Shown in pieces: positions 1 through 56,227 of a stretch of DNA of 64,000 nt. Both the position numbers and the translations under genes were made by a program. The notes under the pieces are model-generated. The model did not search any database. It had not been told where the DNA came from and was given only the letters and a program-made list of their open reading frames with translations. Source of the DNA: Stieleria magnilauensis (GTDB taxonomy: Bacteria; Planctomycetota; Planctomycetia; Pirellulales; Pirellulaceae); the NCBI GenBank assembly GCA_007753675.1, contig CP036432.1:2206394-2270393 (forward strand), in the 5' to 3' direction. The stretch's first letter is position 1. Each line of letters starts with the position of its first letter.

Positions 1-1308
1 GGCCCACCGACCGCTCAAGAAGCCAACTACGATCTGTCGGTCTTCAATGCCAACAACCGAACCAATTCAAACGCCGCGTCTCCCCAGACCGCCAATTCCC
101 AAAATTTCGGTACGCAAAATTTTGGACAAAACTCGACCAGGACGACGGCGCAGCAAGACCTCTTGTATCCGGGAAGCCTGTCCGGTGGAGCTGCATCGCG
201 GCAAACCGCGACCGGTGGTTCGGCATTGGGATTCCCTGCGGCCGATCCCCGCTCGATGACCTCGACCGGGGCGACCAGCGGGAACGCGGCGACCAGCACG
301 ACGCCTCCCAGTGTGCCTTCCAGTTGGACCTACGAACAGATTGCTCAGCTAGGGCAATTGTTTGGGGTCCAACCGACTGATCCGCGGATGGGCGACAAGG
401 CCTTCGTGAACGACCTCTATGCCAGCTATCGAGAGTATTTGGCGAAACAGCAAGCGGCTCAGGCGAGTGCCGAAACGACAGCCAACGCAGCCGCACCGGG
501 GCGCTGGTCGGCCGGAGGCATCGGGGTGGGTGGACAGGCGGGATGGAACCTGCCAGGCGTTCAACCACCGGCCGGAACGTCTCAACCGGGCGGATTGGCG
601 GGGATGGATCCGCGTCTGGCCAGTCTTGATGGCCTCACCACCACGACGGGTGGCGGCACTTGGGGTTCAGAAGACAATTCTACGCGCAGGACCGACGTGG
701 ATCCGCGTTTGTCCCAGAAAGACATCGATGGATTGCCGCCAGGGGCGTGGTCCTATGACAAGTACGGCAATCCGATCGACAAGGAACGTTATGTCTTGGA
801 TCGATTTGGCGAGCGTGTGGATGAGGAAACTCAGTGGGAGCTGACGATCGGTCGAAAGCGTCGCATGGAAGAAGAGCGTCTGGCTAAACTGGAAGCCGAG
901 CGCGTCCGCTCGGCGCTGCCGGCTGATTCATCGCTGGGCCAGCCCAGTGCCAGCGACCGTTTGCTCGGCGGCAATGGAGTCACGGCGGCGGGGTCGTTGC
1001 GACCGCCTGTCGGTGGCGTCAGCGCGGCGGATCGGCCCAACCTTGCCGGCACCGGAGCTGCGGGTGGCGTCGGTCAGCGAGACCCGGGCCAACGAGATCC
1101 CAGCCAGAGCAACCGCCCGCCGTCGGCCGACCAGGCAGGGATCGCGGGTGCGATCGGCAGATCGAACCCCTACGTCAACGTCTTCTTGTTATGCTCGCTC
1201 GTTGCCAACGCGTTCCTGTTCATCTCGTTGCATCGCTTGTGGTACCACCACCGCGATCTGATCGCGTCGAGCCGCATGGCTGCCAGCGGGATGTCTAGCA
1301 ACGACTAG
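1..1308 (+). CDS. C-terminal part of a hypothetical membrane-anchored protein
   Basis: The reading frame is open from the first base, so the true start lies left of the window. The visible 435 residues are low-complexity and rich in Gly, Ala, Ser, Thr, Gln and Pro, followed by a charged helical stretch (KRRMEEERLAKLEAERVRS). One hydrophobic segment near the C-terminus (NPYVNVFLLCSLVANAFLF) precedes a short basic tail, which suggests a C-terminal membrane anchor with a large soluble N-terminal part. I do not recognise the family. The stop codon TAG is the last part of a CTAG that forms the left end of a dispersed palindromic element. Coding status is well supported by length and codon use; function is unknown. 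Confidence 0.75.
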   Translation, partial: GPPTAQEANYDLSVFNANNRTNSNAASPQTANSQNFGTQNFGQNSTRTTAQQDLLYPGSLSGGAASRQTATGGSALGFPAADPRSMTSTGATSGNAATSTTPPSVPSSWTYEQIAQLGQLFGVQPTDPRMGDKAFVNDLYASYREYLAKQQAAQASAETTANAAAPGRWSAGGIGVGGQAGWNLPGVQPPAGTSQPGGLAGMDPRLASLDGLTTTTGGGTWGSEDNSTRRTDVDPRLSQKDIDGLPPGAWSYDKYGNPIDKERYVLDRFGERVDEETQWELTIGRKRRMEEERLAKLEAERVRSALPADSSLGQPSASDRLLGGNGVTAAGSLRPPVGGVSAADRPNLAGTGAAGGVGQRDPGQRDPSQSNRPPSADQAGIAGAIGRSNPYVNVFLLCSLVANAFLFISLHRLWYHHRDLIASSRMAASGMSSND

Positions 1309-1437
1309 TATTCCGTGTCACCTTGCGTTTCGGGTGGGCGGTAGTGGACGAGGCGACGAGTCCTTGCCAATATGCCGACTGCAGAGGACTCGTCGCCTCG
1401 TCCACTACCCGAAAATTTAGCTGAGACGGAGCACTAG
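1305..1437. repeat. Family A palindromic repeat, full-length copy A1
   Basis: This 133-bp element has two perfect 24-bp inverted arms (1341-1364 and 1385-1408, starting GTAGTGGACGAGG) around a 20-base loop. Its flanks are 36 bp (left) and 29 bp (right), and both outer ends are CTAG (1305-1308 and 1434-1437). The left CTAG contains the TAG stop of the upstream gene. Homologous copies lie at 28840-28972, 37618-37782, 46796-47027 and 56095-56227. The GTAG foot of each arm is like that of REP sequences handled by RAYT transposases. No transposase gene is visible in the window. Confidence 0.9.
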
Positions 1438-1471
1438 GCGAATTTCATCTCGACACGCTCAAGACCATCTG

Positions 1472-1990
1472 ATGACGATTGATCTAAAAAGTTTCATCCG
1501 CGACATCCCCAATTTTCCCAAGCCGGGAATCATCTATCGCGATATCGCCCCGTTGCTGCTCGATCCCCAGGCCTTCAAGGCTGCCACCGAAGCCATGGCG
1601 GCACCGTTCGACGGAGAAACGGTCGACGTGGTTGCCGCCGCCGAAGCGCGGGGATTCATCTTTGCCGCGCCGTTGGCGCTGCACTTGAACGCCGGGTTCG
1701 TGCCGATTCGAAAACCCGGCAAGCTGCCCTTTGAAACGCATTCCCATTCGTATGACCTGGAGTACGGCAGTGACGAGTTGCACGTCCACATCGACGGCGT
1801 GCTTCCCGGCCAGCGGGTGATCATCGTCGACGACCTGCTCGCGACCGGCGGCACGATGCAGGCCTGTTGCAAACTGCTGGAACTCTGCCAGGCCGAGATC
1901 TTGGGGTGTTCGTTCCTGATTCACTTGGCCGGGCTAAAGGGCGAAACCAAGCTGCAGCCCTACCGCGTCGAATCGGCCATCGTCTATTAA
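1472..1990 (+). CDS. apt: Adenine phosphoribosyltransferase
   Basis: This cytoplasmic purine-salvage enzyme converts adenine and PRPP to AMP and pyrophosphate. The 172-residue length is normal for bacterial Apt. The N-terminus (IRDIPNFPKPGIIYRDIAPLL) is the classic Apt hood region. The PRPP-binding loop VIIVDDLLATGGT is at residues 116-128, and the family-typical segment IRKPGKLPFET is at 79-89. The ATG at 1472 gives the expected N-terminus. The gene sits between palindromic element A1 and a long minisatellite, so it is probably transcribed alone. Nothing is missing from the active site. Confidence 0.95.
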   Translation: MTIDLKSFIRDIPNFPKPGIIYRDIAPLLLDPQAFKAATEAMAAPFDGETVDVVAAAEARGFIFAAPLALHLNAGFVPIRKPGKLPFETHSHSYDLEYGSDELHVHIDGVLPGQRVIIVDDLLATGGTMQACCKLLELCQAEILGCSFLIHLAGLKGETKLQPYRVESAIVY

Positions 1991-2005
1991 GTTTCGCGTC
2001 GATCA

Positions 2006-2880
2006 TCTTGCTGCTTCGCAGCGCGTGCGGATGCGCCTGAAGGCTGGACACCAACCTGCGCTGGTGTGCAGGCTTCAGCCGCCCGTCTTGCTGCTTCGCA
2101 GCGCGGGAGGATGCGCCTGAAGGCTGGACACCAACCTGCGCTGGTGTCCAGGCTTTAGCCGCTCCGTCTTGCTGCTTCGCAGCGCGGGAGGATGCGCCTG
2201 AAGGCTGGACACCAACCTGCGCTGGTGTCCAGGCTTTAGCCGCTCCGTCTTGCTGCTTCGCAGCGCGTGCGGATGCGCCTGAAGGCTGGACACCAACCTG
2301 CGCTGGTGTGCAGGCTTCAGCCGCCCATCTTGCTGCTTCGCAGCGCGTGGGGATGCGCCTGAAAGCTGGACACCAACGGTTGCTGGTGTGCAGGCTTCAG
2401 CCGCCCGTCTTGCTGCTCCGCAGCGCGGGAGGATGCGCCTGAAGGCTGGACACCAACCTGCGCTGGTGTCCAGGCTTTAGCCGCCCGTCTTGCTGCTTCG
2501 CAGCGCGGGGGATGCGCCTGAAAGCTGGACACCAACGGTTGCTGGTGTGCAGGCTTCAGCCGCCCGTCTTGCTGCTTCGCAGCGCGTGAGGATGCGCCTG
2601 AAGGCTGGACACCAACGGTTGCTGGTGTGCAGGCTTCAGCCGCCCGTCTTGCTGCTTCGCAGCGCGGGAGGATGCGTCTGAAGGCTGGACACCAACCTGC
2701 GCTGGTGTGCAGGCTTTAGCCGCTCCGTCTTGCTGCTTCGCAGCGCGGGAGGATGCGCCTGAAGGCTGGACACCAACCTGCGCTGGTGTGCAGGCTTCAG
2801 CCGCCCATCGTGCTGCTTCGCAGCGCGTGGGGATGCGTCTGAAGGCTGGACACCAACCTGCGCTAGTGTCCAGGATTTCG
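2006..2880. repeat. Minisatellite of about 11 tandem 80-bp units (family F)
   Basis: Units begin TCTTGCTGCTTCGCAGCGCG and start at 2006, 2086, 2167, 2248, 2328, 2408, 2488, 2567, 2647, 2728 and 2808, a period of 79-81 bp. Each unit carries an inverted repeat, CTGGACACCA with TGGTGTCCAG, around an 8-base loop. Some units have a one-base change in the right arm (TGGTGTGCAG). Unit lengths of 79, 80 and 81 bp break any reading frame, so I treat the array as non-coding. A diverged single copy is at 14437-14515. The array occupies nearly all of the space between apt and nadA. Confidence 0.93.
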
Positions 2881-3052
2881 CTGCTCCGCCGCGAATTTCA
2901 ATCGCCGGGCAGCTGGACACCTCCCTGCGATGGACCCACGGGGGAGAAATGGACGGCAATGGGGCGGGTGAATCGACCGAATGGTCAACCTCCCCTACAA
3001 TAGAACCAGTGGCAGGCCGGTTGCTTGTCGCTCGTTCCCCGTCTTTTTGAAA

Positions 3053-4225: not shown

Positions 4226-4330
4226 CGGCCCCTATGACCGTCAAACCCGGTGCAAACTCGACGAGGGACAAAGTTTCACCACGTTGAATCGGGGCAAACT
4301 GGGCGTTTGATGCTTTTAATGCCGATTTCG

Positions 4331-4360
4331 TTGACAGTTGATTTTTGCGGTAACTATACT
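4331..4360 (+). promoter_or_regulatory. Sigma70-type promoter upstream of the coiled-coil membrane protein
   Basis: TTGACA at 4331-4336 and TATACT at 4355-4360 are separated by 18 bases, close to the housekeeping consensus. It lies in the 305-bp gap after nadA. Initiation near 4367 would give a leader of about 160 bases before the gene at 4531. A 94-codon frame across this gap (4250-4534) has no protein-like character. The rest of the gap shows nothing I can name. Confidence 0.6.
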
Positions 4361-4530
4361 TCCGGGAGTGCGGAATGGCGGTTGATGCGAGGGCATCCTG
4401 CGTTTCTGCAAGGAAAATCCATCGTGGGCACCCGGCTTATCGTCGCTCACCAACCCGGCATTTTGTCGCCTGAACCCTACCAAATTCGACAACGTGTTCG
4501 GACCGCTCCTGTCAAAGGAAAGCTCCTAAA

Positions 4531-11902: not shown

Positions 11903-11940
11903 GTGGTGTAACGTAACTGCGCCGCCAAAGACGCGGACTC

Positions 11941-15280: not shown

Positions 15281-15410
15281 GCGGCAAGCATCGTCGTGGC
15301 GTTCGCCAGAGATGTAGAGGGTTCCGCCGCCCGACTTTTCCATCCCGGACACGGCCCCCGCTCCTGAGATGCCACGCCGCCAAGCATTGATTCCTTGCGA
15401 TTTACGAGAT

Positions 15411-15755
15411 GTTAGCGGCAGGGCGCAAGCCCTCCGGTCGCTCATCTGCGATTTGCGAGGTGTTAGCGGCAGGGCGTTATCCCAAATACCGGAGGGCTCG
15501 CGCCCTACCGCTAAGAAACGCTTCACCGCGTTATCCCAAACACCGGAGGGCTCGCGCCCTGCCGCTAAAAAACGCTTCACGGCGTTATCCCAAATACCGG
15601 AGGGCTCGCGCCCTACCGCTAAGAAACGCTTCACGGCGTTATCCCAAATACCGGAGGGCTCGCGCCCTGCCGCTAAGAAACGCTTCACGGCGTTACCCGA
15701 AACACCGGAGGGCTCGCGCCCTGCCGCTAAAAAACGCTTCACTGCGTTACCTGAC
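15411..15755. repeat. Family B repeats with five 54-bp tandem units
   Basis: CGGAGGGCTCGCGCCCT recurs at 15490, 15544, 15598, 15652 and 15706, exactly 54 bp apart, each followed by CGCTAAGAAACGCTTCAC or close. A part-inverted copy, TTAGCGGCAGGGCGCAAGCC, begins the array at 15411. The period is a multiple of three, so a frame stays open through the array into the next pseudopilin gene. Repeats end directly before the ATG at 15756. Related copies are at 8017, 26383, 40906 and 49996. Confidence 0.9.
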
Positions 15756-26382: not shown

Positions 26383-26500
26383 TTTTTAGCGGTAGGGCGC
26401 GAGCCCTCCGGTGTTCCGGCAACGATGAGGGACCGGAGGGCTTGCGCCCTGCCGCTAACACCGCGTCAAACGCAAGGAATTTAACGCTTCACTGCGTTGC
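26383..26500. repeat. Family B palindromic element
   Basis: TTTAGCGGTAGGGCGCGAGC is followed, after CCTCCGGT and a 23-base loop, by ACCGGAGGGCTTGCGCCCTG and CCGCTAA, so arms of about 27 bp are inverted with few mismatches. The tail AACGCTTCACTGCGTTGCCC matches the repeat array at 15411-15755. It is the clearest single copy of family B. It is embedded between family C copies. Confidence 0.85.
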
Positions 26501-28839: not shown

Positions 28840-28972
28840 CGATATTTTCTTGCCACCTTGCGTTTCGGGTAGGCGGTAGTGGACGAGGCGACGAGTCCTT
28901 GCCAACATGCCGACTGCAGAGGACTCGTCGCCTCGTCCACTACCCAGAAATTTAGCAAACACGCACCGCTAG
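28840..28972. repeat. Family A palindromic repeat, copy A2
   Basis: The 68-bp core is at 28876-28943 with perfect 24-bp arms. The 29-bp flank ends in CTAG at 28969-28972, which contains the TAG stop (read leftward) of the giant protein gene. The 36-bp flank on the other side carries CACCTTGCGTTTCGGGTAGG as in A1, but its outer end is degraded (CGAT in place of CTAG). The loop has the same direction as in A1. Confidence 0.88.
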
Positions 28973-31900
28973 CCGATGGACGTCGACCACAGGTCGATCC
29001 AATCCATTTCCGCGGAGTCCGATTCATCGTCGTCCTCCTCGCCCATCACGTCGGTCAGTGCGTCAATGGCCTGGTCGACACGATTGGGATCCCAATTTGC
29101 CCAGGGGGCGGGATCAGCCGGTGACAACTCGGACGGCTTGATCGGGTCAGCCATCAACGGCGACAGCGAGTTGGATGTCTCACCACCAGCCGGTTCGGTC
29201 ATTGACGCCGCATCGGGCCCGGCCGGTAGGGTTCCAAACCGCGGTGATTCTCCTTCGCTTCCGACCTGGGCGGCGAGAGAGTTGATGATCGCGAGCGCGT
29301 CACGACTGGTCGCCAACCCGTCGCCGTTGACGTCGTAGAATTGGTACGAACTCATCTCCGGCAGCGTCGGCAACTCATTCTGACCGTCAACGGCCAGGCG
29401 ATTGATCGTAATCAACGCGTCGATCAGACTCACTTCGCCGTTCCGGTTGACGTCGAAACGGTTGAAGGGGTTCTGCCAAACGGAGCCGCTGGACACATGG
29501 ATGGTGGCGTCGTCTTTGACCAATCGGTGCGTGGCGTAACCGGCGACCTTGATAGGCGTTTCGAACCGCCAACCATTTGCCAACGTCAATTGGTCCTCCG
29601 GTCCGACGTTGATGTGTAGCGAGTTGTTGGCATCGGTCATCGCGATCACCGCCGGAGCGTCCAAGTCGAGTGCCTGGCTGGCCGAATCGGTCAAATCAAG
29701 TCGTTCGATGTTTCGCAACACCACGCCACCGGACAGCTCCGGTGGAAGCAATCCACCGGCGAACAGCGTGACCGTGTCATAACCGTCTCCGCCGTCGACC
29801 TCGCCACCGGTCATTTCGGACAATGCAATTTGGTCGTTACCGTTGCCAGACCGGATGGAGACCTGCGTCGGATCGGGCAAGGATTCGACGAAGATCGATT
29901 CGCTGCGGTCGCCGGTTTCCAACGTAGCCCCACCGGGATCTCCGACAGCGGTGCTACGCAGCGTTTCGCCGCTAATCTCGTCGATCAGAACAATTCGATC
30001 TCCTTCCTGACGGATCCTGAGGTCGCTGAGGATCGAGTCGATGTGGACGACACCGATGATTCGTCGACTGGCTTCGGCGTAGACCGGGTCACTTGGACCT
30101 CGATCAACGTTGACATAAACCGATCCGATCAGGTTCCGGTCGGCAACAAAGTCGAGCGGGGTGCTGACCACGACGACCTGGGGCTGATCCCAATTGTCGG
30201 GCGTGAACGTCAAGACCGAGGGGGTGAACACGGCCTCGGGCACAGCCGCGCCGTCGATCGAAATCTGCACCGGAGAAAGCGGACGCGTTTCGAGCGCCAA
30301 CGAGAACGGGTCATCCAATCCGAATTCGTTGACGATCGTCGAACCGTCGGTCTCCTCCAGCCAAATCCAAGCCACGTCGTCGTCGATCACATCGACAATC
30401 AGCGTTTGTGGTTCCAGCTCATCAAACGCGACGCCCGACGTCACTGTCGCGGTCAGCGTCACTTGAGTGTCCCCTTCAGAAGTGAAGTCGTTGATTGCGG
30501 TGGCTTCCAGAATCTGTGGGATCGACCAATTGTCGGGCGTAAAGGTCAACTCCGTCGTCGAAACGTCCAATTGCGACGGGGCACTCGACGCGATCGCAAT
30601 CGTGACGTCACTGATCGGTCGAACCGACAGTGCCAACGACGTCACGCCGGGCGCGGCGCCTTCGGTAACCCGCAAATTCGAAGTCAGAAAGTCAAAACCG
30701 GCGACCTCGTCATCGAGCACCGAAATCGTGACCACTTCGTCGGGATGCCCGGCACCGGCAAACGTCAGATCGATCTCGCGCGTGCCATCGACGACCTGGT
30801 TGTCCATTGCGGCGATTTCAAACGCGACCGTCGGTCGACCGGGAAGGAAGGTGATCGAGGAAGGCAGTTGCAGCACGTCGGCGACCGACGGCGTGATCGA
30901 GACGGTCATCCTCTGGAGCGTGTTGCGAGTCAATCTGGCGACGCTCCGTCGGCTGCCTTCGACGAGATGGGGCGAATCGATCAACAGACGCATTTCCGGA
31001 GTGTCGTTGTCCTGGATCGTCTCGGTCAACGTGTCGGCAATGTAGCCTGCCGATGCCACGGTGACATCAACCTGTTGATCACCAGCGACGGTCGGGTTGT
31101 CGACGACCTCCGCGGTGAAGAAGACCTCCGTTTGCGTGGCGCCGAAGCGAACACTTGCCGGCAGCCTCAGACTGCTAAACGCACCGCCGCTGATCACCAC
31201 GACCGCTTCGCCCTCCGGGGCGGGACGCGTGACCCGATAGGTGGCCGTGCCGCTCGATTCGGTCAAGGGGTCTCCGAGACGGGTGAGCGTCAGTTGCTCG
31301 TGATCGGTGATGGTCAGCTCCGTTCGGCTCAGTTGGTACCCCGTCGCCGATGCAACCACGGAGACGATTTGGTCGCCTTCCAATTGATCGTTGTCGATCG
31401 CGGCAGCAAAGAAAGGTCGTGAGAGATGACTTCCGTCATCGAATTGCACCGCCCCCGGCACGGCCAGTCTGCCCGGGCTGGTCGACGCCAGGGTTGCCAC
31501 CGTGTTGCCACGCGGGTCACTGCGACGCACTTGCATCTCGATGGTGCCGCCATTTTCCGCAATGGAATTCGATGCGGTCACCAAGGTCAATTCTTCGTAG
31601 TCGGTCACATTGACGGTGTCCGTCGCGGTGATGTATCCCGGGCCGGACGCGGTGACGGTTCCGACACGAATGGCATCGAGCGTGGAATTGTCATTGGCGG
31701 TGATCACAAAGGGATCCGACGTTGCCGCACCATCGGCAAACGTGATCGTCGCCGGCACACTCAACAATCCGGCCGGCGTGGTCCCGATCGTTGCCGTCAG
31801 CGGTTGGCTGGTATCGGTGCGTGTCAGCCGCGCTGTCGCCGTGCCGCCATTTTCACGGATGGAATCTTCGTCGATGATCAACGTCAGTGGCTCGTAGTCG

Positions 31901-34900
31901 AGCACGTCGAGGGTGGTTGCTGCGTCAATCATCCCGACGCTGAACGTGGTGATCGTGACGCTTTGAGTGCCATCAAGGATCTGGTTGTCACGACCGGTGA
32001 GCGTCACCGTCGCTTGAGTCTGCCCGGCGGGAATCGTGATGCGAGTGGACGAAAGCAACAGTTGGTCGGAGCGTGAGACCGCTAGGTCGACCACTGCGGA
32101 TTGGCGGGCATCCAATCGTGTCAGCGTCAGCGTGACCGATGCGGAATTCTCAAACACCGTACGGGAACTCAACCGCATGCCGAAGGTCTCGTAGTCGGTG
32201 ACTTCGACAAACGCGACATCACTTTGGAAATTGCTGGCCGTCGCCGTCACGCCGACGAACTGGGGTCCGTCGAGCAGGTCATCGTCGACACCGAACACGG
32301 GAACCGTGACCGAGTCGACGCCGGCCGGGATGGTCACAAACGACGATCCGAGTCGCAATTCGGTGTTGTCCGACACAGACAACGAAACGACGATCGGCGT
32401 CGACAAATCGGCGTTGCGACGGTGGATGGTGGCGATCGCCCGGCCGCCGTTTTCGCTGATCGATCCTGGATTGATTTCGATGTCCAACAACGGACGCGAG
32501 ACCGAGAACGCCGCCCGGAAGTCGCCGCCGGCGATGCCGTTGCCCGACGGTTTCTTGTCCCAGAGAAACAGGCTGTCATTGCCTGAGATCGCATTGCTGA
32601 GAAACTCACCGTCGAGCAGATCGCCGGTGGAGTTGGTGATACCGCCGGCGTCGCCGTTGATCTCCAACAGGTAAAACCCGGCACGCAACGACTGGCCGAA
32701 TTCCAAGGTTGCTACGTTCCGTGATGGATCCCAACCGATCAATCCATCGGCGTCCGGCACCACCACATCGTTACCGTCGAAAAACGTCGCATCATCGCTT
32801 TGCAGCAACGTAAAGTTATCGGCGGTCAACGTTCCGAGATCCAGGTTCCCGGAAAAGGTGACGTCGAGCGACTCGATCGAATCATCAAAGACGTGGGTCC
32901 CCGGTGTGACCGAGACGTCAGTGACTGACGGCCCGTGGATGAATCCGCCGACGTCGACGCGGCGACCGGGCCGGATCCAATCGAAATGCATTTCGTTGCC
33001 GCCAGCGGTTTCCTGGTACTGGATCCGAACCTGGTAGGTTCCGGCAATCAACCCGGGCGTCAATTCGCCGGACAAGAGCGGTTGGTTGCTGCCCCAGCCG
33101 TTGTCAAACAATTCGCCCGAATCAAACGATCCGCTGCGATCCAGGTCGATCCAAAATCGGCTGCTGTCGTCGCTCCGTGTCAGCAACTGAACTCCGTCTT
33201 CGGGCACGACGACATAACCGTCCCATTGGACGGAAAAGTTGTCCCAATTGTCGTCGTCACCGCCGGTGATTCCGACCGTCGAACGAATGCCGAATTCCGA
33301 ACGCAGAAACGAAACCTTGGGATCGATGCGGGTTCCCGATATCGTCTGCGTCGCTCTCCAGTCCATCTCGTCAACGGTGCGGAGACTGGTGTTGACGTAG
33401 CTACCGGTCAGCCCGGGGTTGCTGAGTGCTGCGTCGGTGAACAGGTTCGCTTCAGCGACGCTACCAGAAACCGTCACCAATTCGAACAATCGCACGTCGT
33501 GTCCGGCGACGTCTACCAAGTCCGCTTCGATGCGATAGCGTCCCGAATCGACCACGCCACGCGAGTAGAGGTTCAACGTCGAATTGAAGGTCGAATTAAT
33601 CGCTTCGTAGGTCGCGTCCAGTTCGGTCAAGGTGTCATCGGCGTTGTCGAACACCCCATCCGGACCGGTGCCCCGCAGCGTGTAGGTTGCCGAATGAACG
33701 CTGGGCATACTCAATTGATCATTCATCCGCACGACAAAGCGACTGGCGTTGTACGGGTCTCGAATGTACGAGACGCTTTGAACCCGCGCCGGCGTGGTGT
33801 CGGTCCCGCTGATCGTCAATCGGGTGACAAAGTCCTCGGCCGGCGAGGTCGCGCTGCCGCTGCGATCGGGGAACGCGTAATCCGCTTGCACCAATCCGTT
33901 GAGCGGGTTGCCGGCCAGGTCGGTGATGCCGCCGGTGCCGCTGACCAACCGGATGGTGTAGTTACCCGGCGTCAGCGGCGAGTCGGCCGTCCAGACGACG
34001 GTCGAATCGAGTGGATTGAGGACGGCGGTCCCTGCGATCACGCCCGCCGACGAATCGCTGACGACGATGTTTTCCGGCGTCAGAGTGGTTTCGTCTAGGA
34101 CGCTGTCAAAATAGAACGTGATTTGCCGGGTGCTGTTGACGACGTCGCCGTTGTCGGGGTGCATCGCAAACACCGTCGGACCGACCGAATCGATGGCACG
34201 CCCCGGTGTGACTTTCAGTCGGTAGTTCCCGGCCGAGCTCAACTTGCCTTCGATGCGAACGGTGATGGTGTCGTCGCTGGCAAAGGTCCAATCCAGAAAC
34301 GGATCGACACTCTTGATCCCGCTGTTGCCGTCGGTCGCATCGTCGCTGGTCGCAATCAGCGACCCGTCGGACAAAAAAATCGACATCACGCTGTCGAGCG
34401 GGTATTGGAATTCCGCGGAATCGATGTCGAACGTCAATCGTTGGCCGGTGGCCACATCGACGGTGTACTGGTCGACATCGCGGTCGCTGTCGATCATTGC
34501 GAACACGACCACGCGGTCGTTCTTGGTCGCGTCGGCCGGCTCATCGACCACCGACAGTGTTCCTTCCCAATAGTTCGTGATCGCCAGTTCGTTATCGCCG
34601 TCGCCGTCGAGATCCGCGACCGCTCCGACCGCTTCGCCGTTGCCGGTTTGAATGGAGATCGGTCGGGTGAAGGTTCCGTCGGGGCTGCCCAGTTGAACCT
34701 TGAGTGTGTTGCCGAACCCGCCGACGATCAGATCTTCGAATCCGTCTTGGTCGATGTCATCGGAGGAGATGAAGTGTGTGGTGATTCGCGTGTCGTGAAA
34801 CGCGTCGAGGACCGGCAACCCCGACGCATCAGACAGGAACACGCGCACGGCCCGGTCCTCTCGATACACGACGGCCAGGTCGTCCCGTCCGTCATTATTA

Positions 34901-37407
34901 AAATCGTCCGACGTCACGCTTTCGGGTCCGTCCCCGGTCGCAAAAACGACGGGACGATTGAATCCGCCCGCTCCGTTTCCGTACCAGAGCGTCAGGTCAT
35001 CGCTGGTGAGGTTGGTGCTGACCAAGTCTTGGTTGCCATCGCCGTCGAAGTCCCCCGAGGACACACCGTGGGGTGCCGTCCCCGTCGACAACTGTTCCAG
35101 AAAACTGAACCGCCCGTCTCCGTTACCGGTGTAAACGCGGATCGAGTTATCGTTGCGGACCGTGGTGGCAAAATCCAGGACGCCATCGTTGTTCAAATCC
35201 GAAACGTGCAGCCCGTTGGGATTGCCGAACAGGGGATAATTGAACGCGGGAGCAAACGTGCCGTCGCCGTTGCTGATCAACACGGAGACACGTTGGGCGC
35301 CGTTGACGATCATCGCGATGTCGTCGTCACCATCTTTGTCGAAGTCACCGACTTCTAACACATCGGTCCACCATCCCAGGTTTCCGCCGGCGGCGATCGT
35401 CAACGGAGCCCCCAGGGTGCCGTCGGCGGCGGCGATGAAGATCTGCAAGCTGTCGTCGGTGTCACTGGACATGACGATGTCGTCTCGACCGTCATTGTTA
35501 AAGTCACCGGCGGCCACATCGGTCGGCCGATCGCCGACATCGTGAAGGGCGGTCGGCGAGTAATCGATCGACATTTCCCGCAAGTAGCTGTCCAGGGAAA
35601 CCTGGCCGGCACTCTCGGTTTGTTCAGAGACGTAGACTTGGGAGCCCGGTTGAAGGATGAAATCCAAGTAGTCGCGGACGTCATAGACTTGATTGCCCGG
35701 ACGCCGCGAATCGGTTCCTTGAAAGGCATAGGTGCCGCCGACCGGTAGATATTCGGTTGTCCCGACATACGACATGAAGGCTTGGACGTCACGGGCGTGC
35801 GGCAGACCGGTCGCGTGACCGAACTCGTGGTTCACCGTCGTGGTGGTCAACCGCCGCAAGGCCGTCGCGGAGGTTTCCCTGGCACTGTTGACGGTGTTGC
35901 CATTGCTGCTCCGCACACCGCGATAGCCGCCGCCGAAACCGCCCGCTCCGATGTCGCCGAAATTGCCGATCCCCGAGGCGACGCGTTCTTTTCCCGCCGC
36001 AGGTTTGACGCGAGTCGCTTCGGCATCGTAGACGCCGTAACGTGAATCGAAGGTTCCGAGGTAATAATCGATCGCTTCGGGAACGGCGTACGGTGCGACG
36101 CGATCAAATCCCAGATACGCATCGGTGCTGTCGAAGTCCATGAAGTGAACGGCGTTGTCCCGCTGCAACGAAAAATCGGTGATCGTCACATACTCGACCG
36201 CGTAGGCTCCCGTACCGATCGGACTGTCGGCGAGGACCTCCAAGAAGTAGCTGCCAGGCACCAGGGCATCGTCGACCTCGGTCGAGATCCGGCCGTTGGG
36301 CGAATAGATCAGCTCTTGCCCGAAAGCGTTGTAGAGCCGCATTTCTTTGCCGCTTTCGACGATTTGTTCGCTGCCGCTGAGCTGCAGATCGAACCGCAGA
36401 AATTCGATGTCGTCGATTTCGAATTGAAAGAAATCGCGATCGGAGGGACCATCAAGGATGCCGACGAAGTTTCCTCGATAGGACGTGGTATCGAGCTGTC
36501 CGGCTGTTTCGAAGGAGTCGCCGAGGTCGGGGAATGCCTGAGCATCGTCGACCAGATCAACGACCATCGCGTAGTCACCGGAGACGGGGCCGGATGAGTT
36601 TGCGCCCGAGAGCGCGACGAAGACTTGCTGGTCGTCTTGGATTTGCAGAACGATTCCGGTTCCCGATTGGTTTTCGCCGATCACGTTGCCCAGCGAATCG
36701 AGAACCTCGACCGCCGGACTGGTTGTTTGTAAACCGGCAAAGGAAACCACCAGTGTTTGACCGGCCGAAGCGCTCACTGAAAAGACGTCTTGTTCGCTGG
36801 CGTCGGCGAGTTGTCCGATGACTTTTTGGCCGAGCAGTCCGTTCAAACCGTCGGCCACCGCGAGCGTGCCGTTGGGTTCGGATTCAAAATTCGCCGGCGC
36901 CCCGGTGTAACTACTTTGCATGCCGTAGGGGCCGACGAAGGTGCCGAAGACGTTTTCCGAACCGACGCGGATGAAGTACTGGCCCGTCGCCGGGGCCACG
37001 AACCGCGCGGCGTCCCCGTCATCGGACGTGACCAGCGTGCGTCCGCTCGAATCCAAGATCTCGAGTCCGGGAGGCAGCGTGGGACTGAACAGGGGCGCGT
37101 TGACGTTGAACGTGTTGATCGAAAAGCGGTCGCCGCGATTCAAATTGACGCGAAAGAAATCGACGTCACGCGTGGAGCTGATGGTGCCTTCTAAGACGTC
37201 GCCGCGGGGCAGGGCGGTGGCGGAAGCCGGCACATCATTGGGCTCGATTTCGGCCGCCAGCAGTTGCCGTTTTTCGAGCGTTTCCGCCTGCAGTTTTCGA
37301 CGCATCCGATGTCGGGACGCCGCATTGCGGGGGCGAGTGAGTCTTCGCGCAGCAGCAGCAGCAGGCGGACCGGCACCCCGGTCGGCGGATTTGGAGAACA
37401 AAGGCAT
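28969..37407 (-). CDS. Giant secreted multidomain protein with metzincin site, FG-GAP, PA14, Calx-beta and dockerin
   Basis: The 2812-residue extracellular protein starts with a basic segment and LEKRQLLAAE (about 44-53), a LExRxLL-type planctomycete surface signal. PPC-like pre-peptidase domains follow to about 400. A metallopeptidase site HEFGHATGLPH (527-537) fits HExxHxxGxxH, with a Met-turn-like MSYVG at 545. FG-GAP repeats span about 620-940. Then come another PPC-like unit, an SbsA-like Ig domain (about 1075-1170), a PA14-like domain (about 1350-1480) and a long row of Calx-beta repeats (about 1640-2340). An RTX-like GGDGYD region is near 2540. Two dockerin-type calcium loops (FDVNRNGEVSLIDALITI, YDVNGDGLATSRDALAII) lie near 2650-2700. 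An acidic tail ends it. It is probably a surface adhesin/protease. Confidence 0.92.
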   Translation of the reverse strand: MPLFSKSADRGAGPPAAAAARRLTRPRNAASRHRMRRKLQAETLEKRQLLAAEIEPNDVPASATALPRGDVLEGTISSTRDVDFFRVNLNRGDRFSINTFNVNAPLFSPTLPPGLEILDSSGRTLVTSDDGDAARFVAPATGQYFIRVGSENVFGTFVGPYGMQSSYTGAPANFESEPNGTLAVADGLNGLLGQKVIGQLADASEQDVFSVSASAGQTLVVSFAGLQTTSPAVEVLDSLGNVIGENQSGTGIVLQIQDDQQVFVALSGANSSGPVSGDYAMVVDLVDDAQAFPDLGDSFETAGQLDTTSYRGNFVGILDGPSDRDFFQFEIDDIEFLRFDLQLSGSEQIVESGKEMRLYNAFGQELIYSPNGRISTEVDDALVPGSYFLEVLADSPIGTGAYAVEYVTITDFSLQRDNAVHFMDFDSTDAYLGFDRVAPYAVPEAIDYYLGTFDSRYGVYDAEATRVKPAAGKERVASGIGNFGDIGAGGFGGGYRGVRSSNGNTVNSARETSATALRRLTTTTVNHEFGHATGLPHARDVQAFMSYVGTTEYLPVGGTYAFQGTDSRRPGNQVYDVRDYLDFILQPGSQVYVSEQTESAGQVSLDSYLREMSIDYSPTALHDVGDRPTDVAAGDFNNDGRDDIVMSSDTDDSLQIFIAAADGTLGAPLTIAAGGNLGWWTDVLEVGDFDKDGDDDIAMIVNGAQRVSVLISNGDGTFAPAFNYPLFGNPNGLHVSDLNNDGVLDFATTVRNDNSIRVYTGNGDGRFSFLEQLSTGTAPHGVSSGDFDGDGNQDLVSTNLTSDDLTLWYGNGAGGFNRPVVFATGDGPESVTSDDFNNDGRDDLAVVYREDRAVRVFLSDASGLPVLDAFHDTRITTHFISSDDIDQDGFEDLIVGGFGNTLKVQLGSPDGTFTRPISIQTGNGEAVGAVADLDGDGDNELAITNYWEGTLSVVDEPADATKNDRVVVFAMIDSDRDVDQYTVDVATGQRLTFDIDSAEFQYPLDSVMSIFLSDGSLIATSDDATDGNSGIKSVDPFLDWTFASDDTITVRIEGKLSSAGNYRLKVTPGRAIDSVGPTVFAMHPDNGDVVNSTRQITFYFDSVLDETTLTPENIVVSDSSAGVIAGTAVLNPLDSTVVWTADSPLTPGNYTIRLVSGTGGITDLAGNPLNGLVQADYAFPDRSGSATSPAEDFVTRLTISGTDTTPARVQSVSYIRDPYNASRFVVRMNDQLSMPSVHSATYTLRGTGPDGVFDNADDTLTELDATYEAINSTFNSTLNLYSRGVVDSGRYRIEADLVDVAGHDVRLFELVTVSGSVAEANLFTDAALSNPGLTGSYVNTSLRTVDEMDWRATQTISGTRIDPKVSFLRSEFGIRSTVGITGGDDDNWDNFSVQWDGYVVVPEDGVQLLTRSDDSSRFWIDLDRSGSFDSGELFDNGWGSNQPLLSGELTPGLIAGTYQVRIQYQETAGGNEMHFDWIRPGRRVDVGGFIHGPSVTDVSVTPGTHVFDDSIESLDVTFSGNLDLGTLTADNFTLLQSDDATFFDGNDVVVPDADGLIGWDPSRNVATLEFGQSLRAGFYLLEINGDAGGITNSTGDLLDGEFLSNAISGNDSLFLWDKKPSGNGIAGGDFRAAFSVSRPLLDIEINPGSISENGGRAIATIHRRNADLSTPIVVSLSVSDNTELRLGSSFVTIPAGVDSVTVPVFGVDDDLLDGPQFVGVTATASNFQSDVAFVEVTDYETFGMRLSSRTVFENSASVTLTLTRLDARQSAVVDLAVSRSDQLLLSSTRITIPAGQTQATVTLTGRDNQILDGTQSVTITTFSVGMIDAATTLDVLDYEPLTLIIDEDSIRENGGTATARLTRTDTSQPLTATIGTTPAGLLSVPATITFADGAATSDPFVITANDNSTLDAIRVGTVTASGPGYITATDTVNVTDYEELTLVTASNSIAENGGTIEMQVRRSDPRGNTVATLASTSPGRLAVPGAVQFDDGSHLSRPFFAAAIDNDQLEGDQIVSVVASATGYQLSRTELTITDHEQLTLTRLGDPLTESSGTATYRVTRPAPEGEAVVVISGGAFSSLRLPASVRFGATQTEVFFTAEVVDNPTVAGDQQVDVTVASAGYIADTLTETIQDNDTPEMRLLIDSPHLVEGSRRSVARLTRNTLQRMTVSITPSVADVLQLPSSITFLPGRPTVAFEIAAMDNQVVDGTREIDLTFAGAGHPDEVVTISVLDDEVAGFDFLTSNLRVTEGAAPGVTSLALSVRPISDVTIAIASSAPSQLDVSTTELTFTPDNWSIPQILEATAINDFTSEGDTQVTLTATVTSGVAFDELEPQTLIVDVIDDDVAWIWLEETDGSTIVNEFGLDDPFSLALETRPLSPVQISIDGAAVPEAVFTPSVLTFTPDNWDQPQVVVVSTPLDFVADRNLIGSVYVNVDRGPSDPVYAEASRRIIGVVHIDSILSDLRIRQEGDRIVLIDEISGETLRSTAVGDPGGATLETGDRSESIFVESLPDPTQVSIRSGNGNDQIALSEMTGGEVDGGDGYDTVTLFAGGLLPPELSGGVVLRNIERLDLTDSASQALDLDAPAVIAMTDANNSLHINVGPEDQLTLANGWRFETPIKVAGYATHRLVKDDATIHVSSGSVWQNPFNRFDVNRNGEVSLIDALITINRLAVDGQNELPTLPEMSSYQFYDVNGDGLATSRDALAIINSLAAQVGSEGESPRFGTLPAGPDAASMTEPAGGETSNSLSPLMADPIKPSELSPADPAPWANWDPNRVDQAIDALTDVMGEEDDDESDSAEMDWIDLWSTSIG

Positions 37408-37617: not shown

Positions 37618-37782
37618 CACGTATTCCGTGTCAGCTCAATTTTCGGGTAGTGGACGAGGCGACGAGTCCTTGCCAATATGCCGACTACACAGGACTCGTC
37701 GCCTCGTCCACTACCCCAAAACAGGACTCGTCGCCTCGTCCACGACCGCCTACCCGACACGCAAGGTGACAAGAAGCACTAG
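37618..37782. repeat. Family A palindromic repeat, copy A3 with an extra arm
   Basis: The 68-bp core is at 37647-37714, followed by a second right-hand arm at 37723-37746. The 36-bp flank then ends in CTAG at 37779-37782, which contains the TAG stop (read leftward) of the GcvH-like gene. The left flank ends in CACG in place of CTAG, followed by TATTCCGTGTCAG as at A1. Duplication of one arm shows local growth of the element. Confidence 0.87.
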
Positions 37783-38279
37783 AAGTTCGCTTGCCCCTTG
37801 ATCGTTCGCTGGGCGACTTTCCACGCTTCGGTCAGGTGATCGGCATACTGATCCGGCGACAGCAAGACGCCCGAGCCGTCGGGGGCGACGTCCAGTTCGA
37901 TCATCCATCCGGCGCCGTAGGGATCGGCGTTGATCAGGGAGGGGTCGGAAAGCACGTGTTCATTGATCGCCGACAGCGTGCCGGCGACGGGCGCATACAG
38001 ATCGCTTTCCGCCTTCTTGCTTTCGATCGCGCCGATCATCTGACGGTGCTCGACCGCCGACGGAGCTTCGACTTCCCAGTCCAGAAAGTAGACGTCTTGC
38101 AACAAGCGAACGGCGTAGGCCGACAACCCGAACCGCCACGTGCTGCCTTTAGAACCTGAGCCGGGCTCGATGCATTGAGCCCACATGTGGTTCTTGGCGT
38201 AATGGCGGTCTCGCGGAAACGTGGCTTCGAATTCACCCATCGCAAAGGTGAATGATTCGGTGCTACGTGTATCGGACAT
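37779..38279 (-). CDS. GcvH-like lipoyl-domain protein
   Basis: The 166-residue protein resembles the H protein of the glycine cleavage system. The lipoyl hairpin IESKKAESDLYAPVAG aligns with the GcvH lipoylation site, giving Lys89 as the lipoyl lysine from the ATG at 38279. SDPSLINADPYGAGWMIEL is the conserved GcvH end of the domain. It is longer than E. coli GcvH (129) at both ends. No gcvT or gcvP is adjacent. It begins 17 bases inside the end of the upstream radical SAM gene, so the two are translationally linked. It could be a paralogue with another carrier role. Confidence 0.82.
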   Translation of the reverse strand: MSDTRSTESFTFAMGEFEATFPRDRHYAKNHMWAQCIEPGSGSKGSTWRFGLSAYAVRLLQDVYFLDWEVEAPSAVEHRQMIGAIESKKAESDLYAPVAGTLSAINEHVLSDPSLINADPYGAGWMIELDVAPDGSGVLLSPDQYADHLTEAWKVAQRTIKGQANF

Positions 38280-39579
38280 TCTGATGTTCCGGCTCAAAGA
38301 ACACTGGCAACATGGCGTCGACTCGCAGCAACCCGTAGCGGGTCAACTCGACGCGGTCCCCGCTGATCGTTGCCCAGCCGTCTTCGACATACTTGTCCCA
38401 TTCTGATTTCCATCGCTCAAGAATGTTGACGCCGAATTTGTTTTGGAAGTAATTCACTTCCAGGTACCCGAGCTTGAGCATCAGGACCATCTCGCGGATC
38501 AGACGCTGGTGATCGGTCGGAACGTAGCCGCGTCCCAGCGGCAGCGAACCCGATTCGACCGTCGACAGGTATTGTTCCAGCTCGGCGACGTTCTGGTAGT
38601 GCACGCCGCTGACGTGGCCGAAGCTGGCGATTCCGGTGGCCAGCAAGTCGGCGCCTTTGAACAGATTATCGCGGTACGAGAAATTCACCTTGGATGGATC
38701 TTTCACAACCGTGTAGGCGCTGCTGATGCTGTAGCCGGCGTCGAGGAATTCGTTGAACGCGTAATCGACCCAGGCACGCTTGGTGGTCCAATCGGCCACG
38801 GGGCTGGTCGTGTGGTTCTCCAGCATGTCCTTGCTGATCACGGTGTTGAAGGGCAACTCCATCTGATAGATCGTCACGCTTTCGGGCGACATGTCGATGG
38901 CTTGACGAATGTTGTCCTTCCAGTTGTCCCAGGTTTCACCGACCATTCCGGAAATCAAGTCGATGTTGACGTTCGGGAACTCGGCTTCGGCGATCCATTC
39001 CCAGGCCCGAAACACCTGTTTGGACAAGTGGGCACGTCCGTTCTCCTCGAGCAGCTTGTCCGAGAAATTTTCGACACCCAGGCTGAGCCGCGTGACGCCG
39101 AGTTCTTCACGCAGTGTTTTGACCTTCGTTTCGCTCAGCGTTCCCGGTTCGCATTCAAACGTCACCTCTTCGGCGCCGTCCCAGGTGATGTGCTGGCGAA
39201 GTCGTTCGGCAAGTTTCGTCAGTTGCTTCGGCGAAAGGAAGCTGGGGGTGCCGCCGCCGAAGTAAACGAAGCGGAACGGGCGGTCCTTCATCACCTCCGT
39301 TTCGCTGACCATTGAGATTTCATTGCACAAGGCATCGACGTAGCGCTGGACTTCCGGCGCGGTCACGTCCGTGAAGACTTTGAAGTAACAAAACTTGCAA
39401 CGCTTTCGGCAAAACGGGATGTGCAGATACAGCCCCAGCGGTGTGGTTTCGACTGCGGGGCTATGCAGCGCCGAAACGATTGCCTCCAACGCGTCCTTCT
39501 TCCATTGGCTGTAAGGCGGATAGTTCGAAATAAAGTAGCTGCCGACTTCAGTTTTCGAATCACTAGCGGCGGACGACAT
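38263..39579 (-). CDS. HemN/HemW-like radical SAM protein
   Basis: The 438-residue protein has the radical SAM motif CRKRCKFC (Cys57, Cys61, Cys64; CxxxCxxC) after YLHIPF, which is the HemN/HemW pattern. FGGGTPSFLS, TFECEPGTL and SLGVENFSDKLLEENGRAH are also family-typical. The second SAM-site Cys of HemN (CxxxCxxCxC) is replaced by Tyr-Phe, more like HemW or other family members. A C-terminal HemN domain follows. Possible roles are oxygen-independent coproporphyrinogen oxidase, heme chaperone or an uncharacterised radical enzyme. The overlapping GcvH-like gene suggests it may act with a lipoyl protein (inference). Confidence 0.85.
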   Translation of the reverse strand: MSSAASDSKTEVGSYFISNYPPYSQWKKDALEAIVSALHSPAVETTPLGLYLHIPFCRKRCKFCYFKVFTDVTAPEVQRYVDALCNEISMVSETEVMKDRPFRFVYFGGGTPSFLSPKQLTKLAERLRQHITWDGAEEVTFECEPGTLSETKVKTLREELGVTRLSLGVENFSDKLLEENGRAHLSKQVFRAWEWIAEAEFPNVNIDLISGMVGETWDNWKDNIRQAIDMSPESVTIYQMELPFNTVISKDMLENHTTSPVADWTTKRAWVDYAFNEFLDAGYSISSAYTVVKDPSKVNFSYRDNLFKGADLLATGIASFGHVSGVHYQNVAELEQYLSTVESGSLPLGRGYVPTDHQRLIREMVLMLKLGYLEVNYFQNKFGVNILERWKSEWDKYVEDGWATISGDRVELTRYGLLRVDAMLPVFFEPEHQNVRYT

Positions 39580-46795: not shown

Positions 46796-47027
46796 CTAGC
46801 GATCCGTCTCAGCTAAACTTTCGGGTAGTGGACGAGGCGACGAGTCCTCTGCGTTCGGGTAGTGGACGAGGCGACGAGTCCTGTTTTGAGGTAGTGGACG
46901 AGGCGACGAGTCCTATTTTGAGGTAGTGGACGAGGCGACGAGTCCTCTGCAGTCGGCATATTGGCAGAGGACTCGTCGCCTCGTCCACTACCGCCTACCC
47001 TGACAAGGAGTACCAGTGCTCCGGCCA
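46796..47027. repeat. Family A repeat, copy A4 with four left arms
   Basis: The arm GTAGTGGACGAGGCGACGAG starts at 46825, 46859, 46891 and 46923, then one right arm ends at 46991. The 29-bp left flank starts with CTAG (46796-46799), here not a stop codon. The loop is in the reverse direction to A1-A3. The right flank is shortened by about 11 bp, and its end reads CTGG in place of CTAG on the other strand. It lies between aroA and the sulfatase gene. Confidence 0.88.
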
Positions 47028-47098
47028 CATTTAGATTTAGGGTACCGCGGAGAAGATCAGGCGGTAACTTGCCAATCACCCTGCCAGTTCCACGACCA

Positions 47099-49987: not shown

Positions 49988-49995
49988 CAGCGAAG

Positions 49996-50558
49996 GTGTT
50001 AGCGGAACGGCGCGAGCCGTCCGGTCGCGCTTCAAAGACATCGTGAAAGACCGGAGGGCTCACGCCCTGCCGCTAACGATGAACTCCCAGCGTGTTAGCG
50101 GAACGGCGCGAGCCGTCCGGTCGCGCTTCAAAGACACCGTGAAAGACCGGAGGGCTCGCACCCTGCCGCTAACGATGAACTCCCAGCGTGTTAGCGGAAC
50201 GGCGCGAGCCGTCCGGTCGCGCTTCAAAGACATCGTGAAAGACCGGAGGGCTCGCGCCCTGCCGCTAACGATGAACTCGCAGCGTGTTAGCGGAACGGCG
50301 CGAGCCGTCCGGTCGCGCCTCAAAGACATCGTGAAAGACCGGAGGGCTCGCACCCTGCCGCTAACGATGAACTCCCAGCGTGTTAGCGGAACGGCGCGAG
50401 CCGTCCGGTCGCGTTTCAAAGACACCGTGAAAGACCGGAGGGCTCGCGCCCTGCCGCTAACGATGAACTCGCAGCGTGTTAGCGGAACGGCGCGAGCCGT
50501 CCGGTCGCGCTTCAAAGACACCGTGAAAGACCGGAGGGCTCGCGTCCTGCCGCTAACC
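49996..50558. repeat. Family B array of six 96-bp units
   Basis: GTGTTAGCGGAACGGCGCGA recurs at 49996, 50092, 50188, 50284, 50380 and 50476, exactly 96 bp apart. Each unit has inverted arms: GTTAGCGGAACGGCGCGAGC and CGGAGGGCTC...GCCCTGCCGCTAAC. The arms are imperfect (AACGG against CAGGG), unlike family B elsewhere. The period is a multiple of three, so frames stay open in several directions; these are not genes. Units differ by few bases, which suggests recent amplification. The array ends before the gene at 50634. Confidence 0.92.
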
Positions 50559-50633
50559 AACAACACCCCGTTGGGTGTGGCACTGGGCTTGCACCGTCGG
50601 CTCAGCATTCAACTTTCGCCCCTGACGACGAGT

Positions 50634-51668: not shown

Positions 51669-51931
51669 CAGCGTCCGAGTGGTAAAAATGTCGTGTGGAG
51701 ATGATTTCGTGACCCAGTCACAGTGGTTGCACACGCTAACGAAAGAAACCGCGGCTGAAAAACGGTTGGCGGCTCGAGAACGCCTGAGTCGACGATTTTC
51801 CGATTCACACACGCCGTCTGGGCAAACTTTGACATGTGGAAAGCCTGTCGGGGACTCACCGTTTGATTTGGCGTTTTCCACTCGGTGCGGTTATTCTGTT
51901 GGCCCCACCACCACCACGCCCACCGCTCGCA

Positions 51932-54604: not shown

Positions 54605-54822
54605 CGGAGCTACCGATCTCGCGGGTGATCGCGAACACGAATCGGCTGATTTCAATCGCGGCATCTGCCGTCTGGTGACAACGAGCCACAGGCGTAGAGG
54701 AGCAATGTCGTCATGACGACACGCCCCGCGGACTGACCTTTCCCTCTGCCATCGACTCTTCGTAGACTGCGGCTTTCATGGACGAAAGTGCCAAGGTGAT
54801 ACGAACCACAGAGGGAAGTGAG

Positions 54823-55107
54823 ATGTTTCGGACGCTTGTGATTCTGGGAGTTTTGGCTGTTTGCGCCTTCATGGCCGGATGGTTCACGATCCAACGTGAT
54901 GAAAACGAGACGACCATCCGATTCAATCGAGAAGAAATTCGCGAAGATGCCTCCAATGCGATCGCCAAAGGCCGTGAGCTGCTCGATCGCGCCGAGGACC
55001 TACCGGAAACCGAAGAGTTGATTCCTCAACAGGCGACTCGCCCGATGACACCGCCTTGGGAACAACCCTACCTGGACGACGCATCGGCTGCGCCGCGGCA
55101 GTATTAA
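54823..55107 (+). CDS. Small single-pass membrane protein
   Basis: The 94-residue protein has one membrane helix (LVILGVLAVCAFMAGWF) followed by a polar, acidic region with a helical segment (REDASNAIAKGRELLDRAEDL). I chose the ATG at 54823, because GAGGGAAGTGAG lies directly upstream. The frame is open to 54778. The C-terminus is Pro-rich. The family is not recognised; a small stress or envelope protein is possible. Confidence 0.72.
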   Translation: MFRTLVILGVLAVCAFMAGWFTIQRDENETTIRFNREEIREDASNAIAKGRELLDRAEDLPETEELIPQQATRPMTPPWEQPYLDDASAAPRQY

Positions 55108-55450
55108 TGCTTCGGCCCTAAGATTCCATCTTGACGAAGCATTCCAGCTCGTTCACCGGACCAACGTTCGGAACCAATCCCACCGATGGCAGCGCGCACC
55201 CACGGATTTTTTTCCCGCTGTCATCCGCGGGTTCGCGCCGCCATCCGCGGGCCAAGTCATCGTATCATCGTTCCGCAAGTTACAGCCTGCCCCGTTTTCC
55301 GCTCCAAGTTCCGAGTCGTCGATCTTGTGAGAGAACCGGGTAGCTGACAGCGCTCCCGTGGCGGGCGGATTGGGATACAATCTCAACCTTGTGGATTCCA
55401 TTTTGCGGACTCCAACGTTTTGAGATTGATGTTGAGCAGGAGTGTCGATC
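55108..55450. other. Non-coding spacer
   Basis: About 340 bp. A TACAAT box is at 55376-55381, but no -35 element with normal spacing is seen. AGGAG at 55438-55442 is the Shine-Dalgarno site of the next gene. Otherwise I see nothing in it. Confidence 0.5.
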
Positions 55451-56098
55451 GTGACGAAAGATCCCTTCGCGGTGCCCGATGACGAAGCCAATCCGTTTGC
55501 GATTCAGCGGCCGGTTGCCGCGGACGCCGCGCTCAATCCCTACGCTCCCACGTCGCACGTGTCCGAGACCGAAGGGTTAGAGTCGGATGTGGAATCGTAT
55601 CGGCGGCGTTACCTCAACCACGAGGCGTCGATCAAATCGGTCGGGATCCTGTATCTGATCCCCGGCGTGCTGCTGCTGGTCTTTTTCGTCGCAATGGCAG
55701 GAATGGCGGCGGTTTCGCTGCTGGTCGACGGCAATGGGATGCAAGGCATGGGGTTGGTCGAGGCGGCGTTGGTGGTCGGGCTGTACGGTGGTCTAGGGGC
55801 GGTGCAGATCTATACCGGCCTGGGACTGCGACGATTCAAGATCGCCGCGCGCCGATTGGCGACGGTGTTCAGCACTATCGGACTGCTCATGTTTCCGATC
55901 GGCACATTGATCAACGGTTACATCCTGTACCTGCTGCAAAGCCAGAAAGGGAAAGTCGTCTTTTCCGAATCGTATCAGGACGCGATCCGTCGCACACCGC
56001 ACATCAAGTACCAGACGTCATTGATCGTCAAAGTCTTGGTCGTGATCTTGATCGCGGTGATGACCCTGGGGATCGTCGCGATGTTTCTCGGCACCTAG
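55451..56098 (+). CDS. Multi-pass membrane protein of unknown function
   Basis: The 215-residue protein has a soluble N-terminus (about 60 residues, with NPYAPTS-like motif) and four hydrophobic segments (ILYLIPGVLLLVFFVAMAGM, GLVEAALVVGLYGGLGAV, VFSTIGLLMFPIGTLINGYI, SLIVKVLVVILIAVMTLGIVAMF). The start is a GTG at 55451, 8 bases after AGGAG. The NPY-P motif followed by helices recalls planctomycete DUF-type membrane proteins. Its TAG stop lies in the CTAG end of family A copy A5. Confidence 0.75.
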   Translation: MTKDPFAVPDDEANPFAIQRPVAADAALNPYAPTSHVSETEGLESDVESYRRRYLNHEASIKSVGILYLIPGVLLLVFFVAMAGMAAVSLLVDGNGMQGMGLVEAALVVGLYGGLGAVQIYTGLGLRRFKIAARRLATVFSTIGLLMFPIGTLINGYILYLLQSQKGKVVFSESYQDAIRRTPHIKYQTSLIVKVLVVILIAVMTLGIVAMFLGT

Positions 56099-56227
56099 TC
56101 GTCTATCGCAGCTCAATCTTCGGGTAGTGGACGAGGCGACGAGTCCTCTGTAGTCGGCATAGTGGCAAGGACTCGTCGCCTCGTCCACTACCGCCGAGCC
56201 GGAAACCAAGGTGCGGCGGGATTTTAC
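56095..56227. repeat. Family A palindromic repeat, copy A5
   Basis: The 68-bp core is at 56124-56191. The 29-bp flank on the left begins with CTAG at 56095-56098, which contains the TAG stop of the membrane protein gene. The loop is reversed relative to A1. Right of the core, CACCTTGGTTTCCGG (other strand) is a diverged form of the 36-bp flank; its outer end lacks CTAG. Confidence 0.85.

Follow-up and report, generated by a model that had tools for sequence, protein, structure and literature searches.

Short repeats behind stop codons of Stieleria magnilauensis are probably IS630-type miniature elements with a REPIN-like core

We analyzed a 64 kb stretch (the window) of the 10.77 Mb single-contig genome of Stieleria magnilauensis, a member of the Pirellulaceae, which holds five copies (A1 to A5) of a short palindromic repeat, family A. 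Taking the window together with the whole genome and the genomes of relatives, we consider it highly probable that family A is an IS630-type miniature inverted-repeat transposable element (MITE) with a core resembling a REPIN, that is, an inverted pair of repetitive extragenic palindromic (REP) sequences, and that it is moved in trans by an IS630 transposase. The comparisons directly support the point of insertion, the ownership of the TAG stop by the gene, the likeness of the ends to those of IS630, and an excess of copies at stop codons. Throughout, G-numbers denote genomes of relatives, L-numbers denote individual loci, and P and Q denote the 36 bp and 29 bp ends of the element.

Family A mostly lies behind stop codons that belong to the genes

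We searched the whole genome for the family-A arm with up to three mismatches and found 271 + 183 = 454 places, compared to none for the reversed arm used as a control. From part of these places we collected 97 loci, a subset of all copies. Among 98 arm groups, both ends were recognized in 56, one end in 32, and no end in 10. All two-ended copies (56/56) consisted of one P and one Q, in both orientations (31 versus 25). Each end starts at a tetranucleotide, most often CTAG (38/73 P ends and 40/71 Q ends), then CGAG, CTCG, and TTAG, and conservation, judged by eye, ends there. Between the ends lie the arm and its inverse, sometimes multiplied; arms faced outward in 48 of 51 two-arm groups and were in tandem in the remaining 3, and 86/98 groups faced outward at both termini. 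The simple form is about 125–130 bp long and has no transposase gene; arrays are longer. A stop codon was found at Q in 32 ends and at P in 19.

Six of the 56 two-ended copies had no TAG at either end, leaving 50 for the stop counts. With the flanks joined and genes called by codon score, 37 of these sites were on a stop codon, 13 were intergenic, and none was coding, whereas unique background CTAGs from the same loci and the window, excluding element sites, gave 16 stop, 93 intergenic, and 58 coding sites (odds ratio 16.5, p = 4e-13). The odds ratio was 14.0 without divergent regions, with background places that are counted twice still included. Genes were called by simple scripts rather than from curated annotation; a second such script, which took the longest open reading frame (ORF), yielded 31 stop, 7 intergenic or edge, and 12 coding sites versus 23, 39, and 92 (odds ratio 7.5, p = 1.4e-5), and was replaced by the codon-score caller because several of its coding calls (e.g., L146 and L153) contradicted the empty sites described below. 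The overlap with stops that a first-pass annotation had noticed in the window is therefore a strong excess over chance in the genome (37/50). The effect was weaker in other genera, where a facing pair of ends framed an element in 20 of 28 loci (L291 and L308 being the same element): 6 were on a stop and 14 intergenic, compared to 6:63 in the background (p = 0.024).

At 38 stop sites, the bases after CTAG were enriched for T, G, C, and T (23, 26, 20, and 18 of 38). A further element end begins with just these bases, which means that some sites have received more than one insertion, and a degenerate end adjoining A4 likewise indicates that sites are reused. Such reuse may account for some of the excess at stops. 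More generally, stops may exceed the availability of CTAG because they are preferred as targets, because insertions elsewhere are purged, or because element-occupied sites are reused.

For a comparison with empty sites, we chose 37 stop ends at which the ORF spans 150 codons or more and the element's other end was recognized; 32 were run as a batch and L125 separately, the batch excluding L151, L187, L190, and L192. Of the 37 ends, 27 (from 26 elements) had a relative among G006, G003, and G001. At 24 of the 27, one or more of these three genomes had a stop codon in the corresponding position (TAG in 20, CTAG in 15); for L160, L171, and L179, no stop was detected in the relative at the position extrapolated. 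Ten rows retained at least 9 of 12 flank bases; L146 accounts for two of them, and L182 was excluded, its flank being a further element end, which left eight distinct elements with near-exact empty sites. At L099, for example, the empty site reads CTTCTAG|TGGGG and the filled site CTTCTAG-element-CTAG|TGGGG. At L146, both relatives have a single TTAG common to two convergent genes, which one gene reads as TAG and its partner as TAA, and in S. magnilauensis each gene retains a stop, one at either end of the element. At L183, a family-A arm lies nearby in G006 as well. Given the stops of the relatives and the eight empty sites, the CTAG is the gene's own, with the element placed after it and a second, often altered copy beyond. 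The empty sites thus bear out two proposals of the first-pass annotation, that CTAG is the target and that insertion leaves the reading frame undisturbed; they do not allow the CTAG to be the element's only. The annotation had named a CTAG owned by the genes as an outcome that would count against its proposal, but this outcome favors CTAG as the target.

IS630-type ends and the cores between them

A DDE_3 profile search returned nine matches in the genome, of which eight are one 1,230 bp IS630-family unit; the ninth (L358) is without the left end of this insertion sequence (IS) and was left out of the count. Seven of the eight copies are identical and one has a single difference. All are flanked by CTAG...CTAG, with the ends TGGTGCGTCAAAGTCTAATTTTAGGGTAG and TGGTGCGTCAGCTTCAAGAATTAGGGTTGG, and two of their reading frames match HTH_32/HTH_23 and DDE_3. 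Compared to consensus ends that we picked ourselves, the IS left end was identical to Q at 19/29 positions (0/1000 shuffles as good) and to P at 17/29 (8/1000), and it matched the superfamily end, an outer-end consensus found across the Pirellulaceae, at 21/29 (0/1000). The IS630 copies also favor stops: five of eight were on a stop, two were intergenic, and one was coding, that is, 5/7 of the non-coding copies (p = 0.002). G001 harbors a different IS630, whose ends are not the same and which has TA at both borders; it gave 1 stop, 7 intergenic, and 3 coding sites (n = 11), a contrast that with so few copies is only suggestive. One copy of the home IS630 (L356) adjoins a motif similar to GTAGCCTAGGGCAACGCCCTAGGAA.

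With up to three mismatches, the outer-end consensus matched in 34 of 241 Pirellulaceae genomes, representing 14 of 68 genera, and reversed controls gave none. These ends enclose palindromes that look unlike one another by eye: family-A-like arms (L316 and L318), family-B repeats (L310), AAAAGGGGTCAGG arms (L321), AAAGGTGTC arms (L295 and L304), GTAGC-type arms (L301, L302, L305, and L312), and family-C-like arms (L296 and L319). Conversely, family-A-like arms stood beside another kind of flank in 9 of 15 G019 loci. Because like ends hold varied cores and the G019 arms have other flanks, the pairing of ends with cores is not fixed; it may have been changed by a REPIN inserting into a MITE or by recombination that replaced one core with another. 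We consider it a tentative possibility that one IS630-type end pair operates across the Pirellulaceae, with swappable REPIN cores and a preference for stop codons, placing a strong hairpin behind an unchanged protein.

No pair of superfamily ends 500–5000 bases apart was seen in the loci collected before the IS630 search. A pattern scan of IMG/VR gave ten matches, none with a facing end pair, which we took as chance, and two of the four matches of one contig search (L292 and L293) also look like chance by eye. In G019, L317 carries an interrupted family-A-like arm followed by an ORF that resembles a transposase by eye.

The five copies in the window

All five loci described by the first-pass annotation are present (Table 1). 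Its inverted arms are real, although their length is 25 bp rather than 24 bp (GGTAGTGGACGAGGCGACGAGTCCT paired with its inverse), and its two kinds of flank correspond to P and Q. It had also placed the CTAGs correctly, at both ends of A1, on the right of A2 and A3, and on the left of A4 and A5, and had recognized the TAG as the stop of the adjacent ORF at A1, A2, A3, and A5. The right border of A4, which it had set at 47027, needed revision: the bases beyond the CCAG belong to a second, degenerate element, probably an older one, whose end (47013..47043) is of the same superfamily. The genes on either side of A4, for a sulfatase and EPSP synthase, are both on the minus strand, and A4 is not on a stop codon.

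Table 1. Family-A copies in the window and adjoining features
Feature	Coordinates	Strand	Description
A1	1305..1437		P left, Q right; CTAG at 1305-1308 and 1434-1437; arms at 1340-1364 and 1385-1409
ORF at A1	163..1308	+	381 amino acids; without Pfam match; TAG stop at 1306-1308 inside left CTAG of A1
A2	28840..28972		P left, decayed (CGAT); Q right with CTAG at 28969-28972
ORF at A2	28969..37407	-	2812 amino acids; TAG stop inside CTAG of A2
A3	37618..37782		Three arms; Q left (CACG); P right with CTAG at 37779-37782
GCV_H-domain gene at A3	37779..38297	-	TAG stop inside CTAG of A3
A4	46796..47016		Five arms; Q left with CTAG at 46796-46799; shortened P right, CCAG at 47013-47016; intergenic
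Degenerate end adjoining A4	47013..47043	+	4 mismatches to superfamily end consensus
A5	56095..56227		Q left with CTAG at 56095-56098; P right, decayed (GTAA read inward)
ORF at A5	55442..56098	+	218 amino acids; without Pfam match; TAG stop inside CTAG of A5

The relatives show the same gene ends here. The ORF at A1 ends at the same place in GTAG in G006 and in CTAG in G001, and the ORF at A2 ends in CTAG in G006, in each case with no arm nearby. The CTAG that ends the GCV_H gene at A3 recurs in the corresponding position in G006, G003, G001, G013, and G005; the family-A arm was not found within 450 bases in G006 and G001, and the G003 record stops 38 bases on. At the A5 site, G001 has CTAG followed by GGCTTGCGAGACTGGA, of which 9 of the first 12 bases match the sequence beyond A5. 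As RNA, A1 (1309-1437) has a predicted fold of -73 kcal/mol (z = -8.5), and Rfam gave no match across the window at gathering thresholds. CTAG is rare in the window, with 29 occurrences, whereas base composition would predict 230 and a second-order model 59.

Elsewhere in the window, what may be a superfamily end, very degenerate and with 8 mismatches, lies at 55145 on the minus strand, family-B repeats (GTTAGCGGCAGGGCGCGAGCCCTCCGGT), partly in tandem arrays, at 15396-15731, 26383-26459, and 49996-50557, and strong tandem repeats at 56904-58148 (105 bp, 10 copies) and 2006-2965 (about 80 bp).

Mechanism, alternatives, and known systems

IS630-family elements insert at TA and duplicate it, according to the part of the source available to us (PMC2170065). 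We infer that family A moves in trans by this IS630 with duplication of TA: an IS630-family (Tc1/mariner-like) transposase would move a non-autonomous element with diverged terminal inverted repeats into the TA of CTAG. The element would begin after this TA and have a second TA on its far side, so that the CTAG or NTAG stop would be rebuilt beside the gene and the protein left unchanged. The core between the IS630-type ends would be an exchangeable palindrome resembling a REP pair (GTAG plus hairpin).

Several observations weigh against this reading. The IS right end agreed with the family-A ends at only 13–14/30 positions, and 3 to 47 of 1000 shuffles were as good. With PF13358 at E ≤ 0.001, no IS630 was found in G006, G003, G002, or G013, all of which carry the arm, so another or a lost transposase must be assumed there. 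Among the 35 copies that have a stop on one side, the distal tetranucleotide was CTAG in 16, CGAG in 10, CTCG in 3, and something else in 6; the CGAG and CTCG of 13/35 are not predicted by plain duplication of TA. Finally, four of the eight elements with near-exact empty sites (L107, L152, L153, and L186) are altered distally where the relative has CTAG. Both CGAG and CTCG amount to an A:T to C:G change. Random decay would hardly be expected to look so uniform, and these two distal forms remain the strongest argument for a Y1-type enzyme. Misincorporation in gap repair was weighed as their origin and dropped. At six stop ends with TTAG or GTAG and a recognized other end, the four bases were repeated there in 0/6, which disfavors a 4 bp CTAG duplication relative to TA, unless the first base changed later.

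The first-pass annotation had suggested a Y1 enzyme of the REP-associated tyrosine transposase (RAYT) type. Such a single-strand transposase would insert 3' of NTAG without duplication, and the distal CTAG, CGAG, or CTCG would be its own right cleavage site. This would account for the few distal types, for the four insertions just past a TAG whose distal end is unlike the target, and for the GTAG-tagged arms, since TnpA-REP enzymes, in the part of the report we could draw on, require GTAG and cut at CT (PMC8266576). However, the ends of family A are like those of IS630 and like each other as inverted repeats, and similar ends surround many unrelated cores. The genome has six Y1_Tnp genes, none flanked by a family-A repeat: within set mismatch limits, a scan reaching 1.5 kb from each gene detected no arm, P, or Q, and arm and Q were not found at 28 Y1 loci of relatives, a sample of the many Y1 matches there. 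The scan was able to detect such links: it picked up family-B repeats flanking L006, as well as GTAGCCTAGGGCAACGCCCTAGGAA on each side of the Y1_Tnp gene at L003 (1112-2066 of the locus); L006 and its repeat are likely a RAYT and its REP. IS200/IS605 elements are asymmetric, with distinct left and right ends and the target at the left end only, unlike family A, which occurs in both orientations (31:25) with the stop at either end (Q 32, P 19). Family A does share with the REPINs of RAYTs the GTAG and the inverted pairs of palindromes, but a cognate RAYT flanked by the repeat was absent from the loci examined. On the sequence evidence, the enzyme is probably not a RAYT, and we regard a Y1-type mechanism as quite improbable; as the GTAG-tagged inner arms look like REPs, a RAYT may nevertheless have shaped the core in the past.

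The excess at stops could also be passive, if CTAG is the target, insertions within genes die, and stops are simply the surviving non-coding CTAGs. This would be compatible with an IS630-type MITE, and it draws support from the rarity of CTAG, from the rebuilding of TAG by insertion at CTAG, and from the reuse of places beside older elements. We think it unlikely, because only 16 of 109 non-coding background CTAGs are stops compared to 37 of 50 elements, and because the recent IS630 copies show the same tendency. A further explanation would have the element itself supply the TAG, with genes ending slightly early, as reported for GTAG REPs, whose termini frequently supply a TAG stop in the portion of the study at hand (Di Nocera et al., 2013, PMC3733652). 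The three ends without a stop in the relative (3/27) would fit, but the matching stops at the other 24 refute it for most ends tested, and we consider it extremely improbable.

If family A is indeed an IS630-type MITE, a transposon would spread at low cost in a gene-dense genome by targeting a rare palindrome that frequently coincides with a stop codon and rebuilding the stop. It would join IS630 MITEs with REPINs, and the delivery of REP-like hairpins behind genes by a different transposon would become testable. In the titles and abstract openings of the open-licence papers searched, we found no description of CTAG-targeting elements at planctomycete stop codons.

IS630 itself reportedly prefers the TA in CTAG, as family A does; the passages on IS630 available to us contain no link to stop codons. 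A close parallel is RUP of Streptococcus pneumoniae, an IS630-derived MITE that is, in the available parts of the reports, likewise short, with IS630-type ends, a TA target, and proposed movement in trans (PMC2229807, PMC3049150). Unlike RUP, family A targets CTAG, mostly at stops, and has a REP-like core that differs between families with similar ends. Pneumococcal BOX repeats encode a stop in 36 cases, according to a passage of the same report (PMC3049150). MITEPsy1 of Pseudomonas syringae is another MITE, 100 bp long, that duplicates CTAG or YTAA, but it is classed as probably IS5-type, and the passages available mention no stop-codon excess (PMC3189936). GTAG REPs and REPINs with their RAYTs, as far as the accessible text describes them, likewise combine GTAG with a palindrome, form inverted pairs, and often lie near the 3' ends of genes (PMC3733652). 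In family A, by contrast, IS630-type ends enclose the pair, and it is the gene that owns the TAG.

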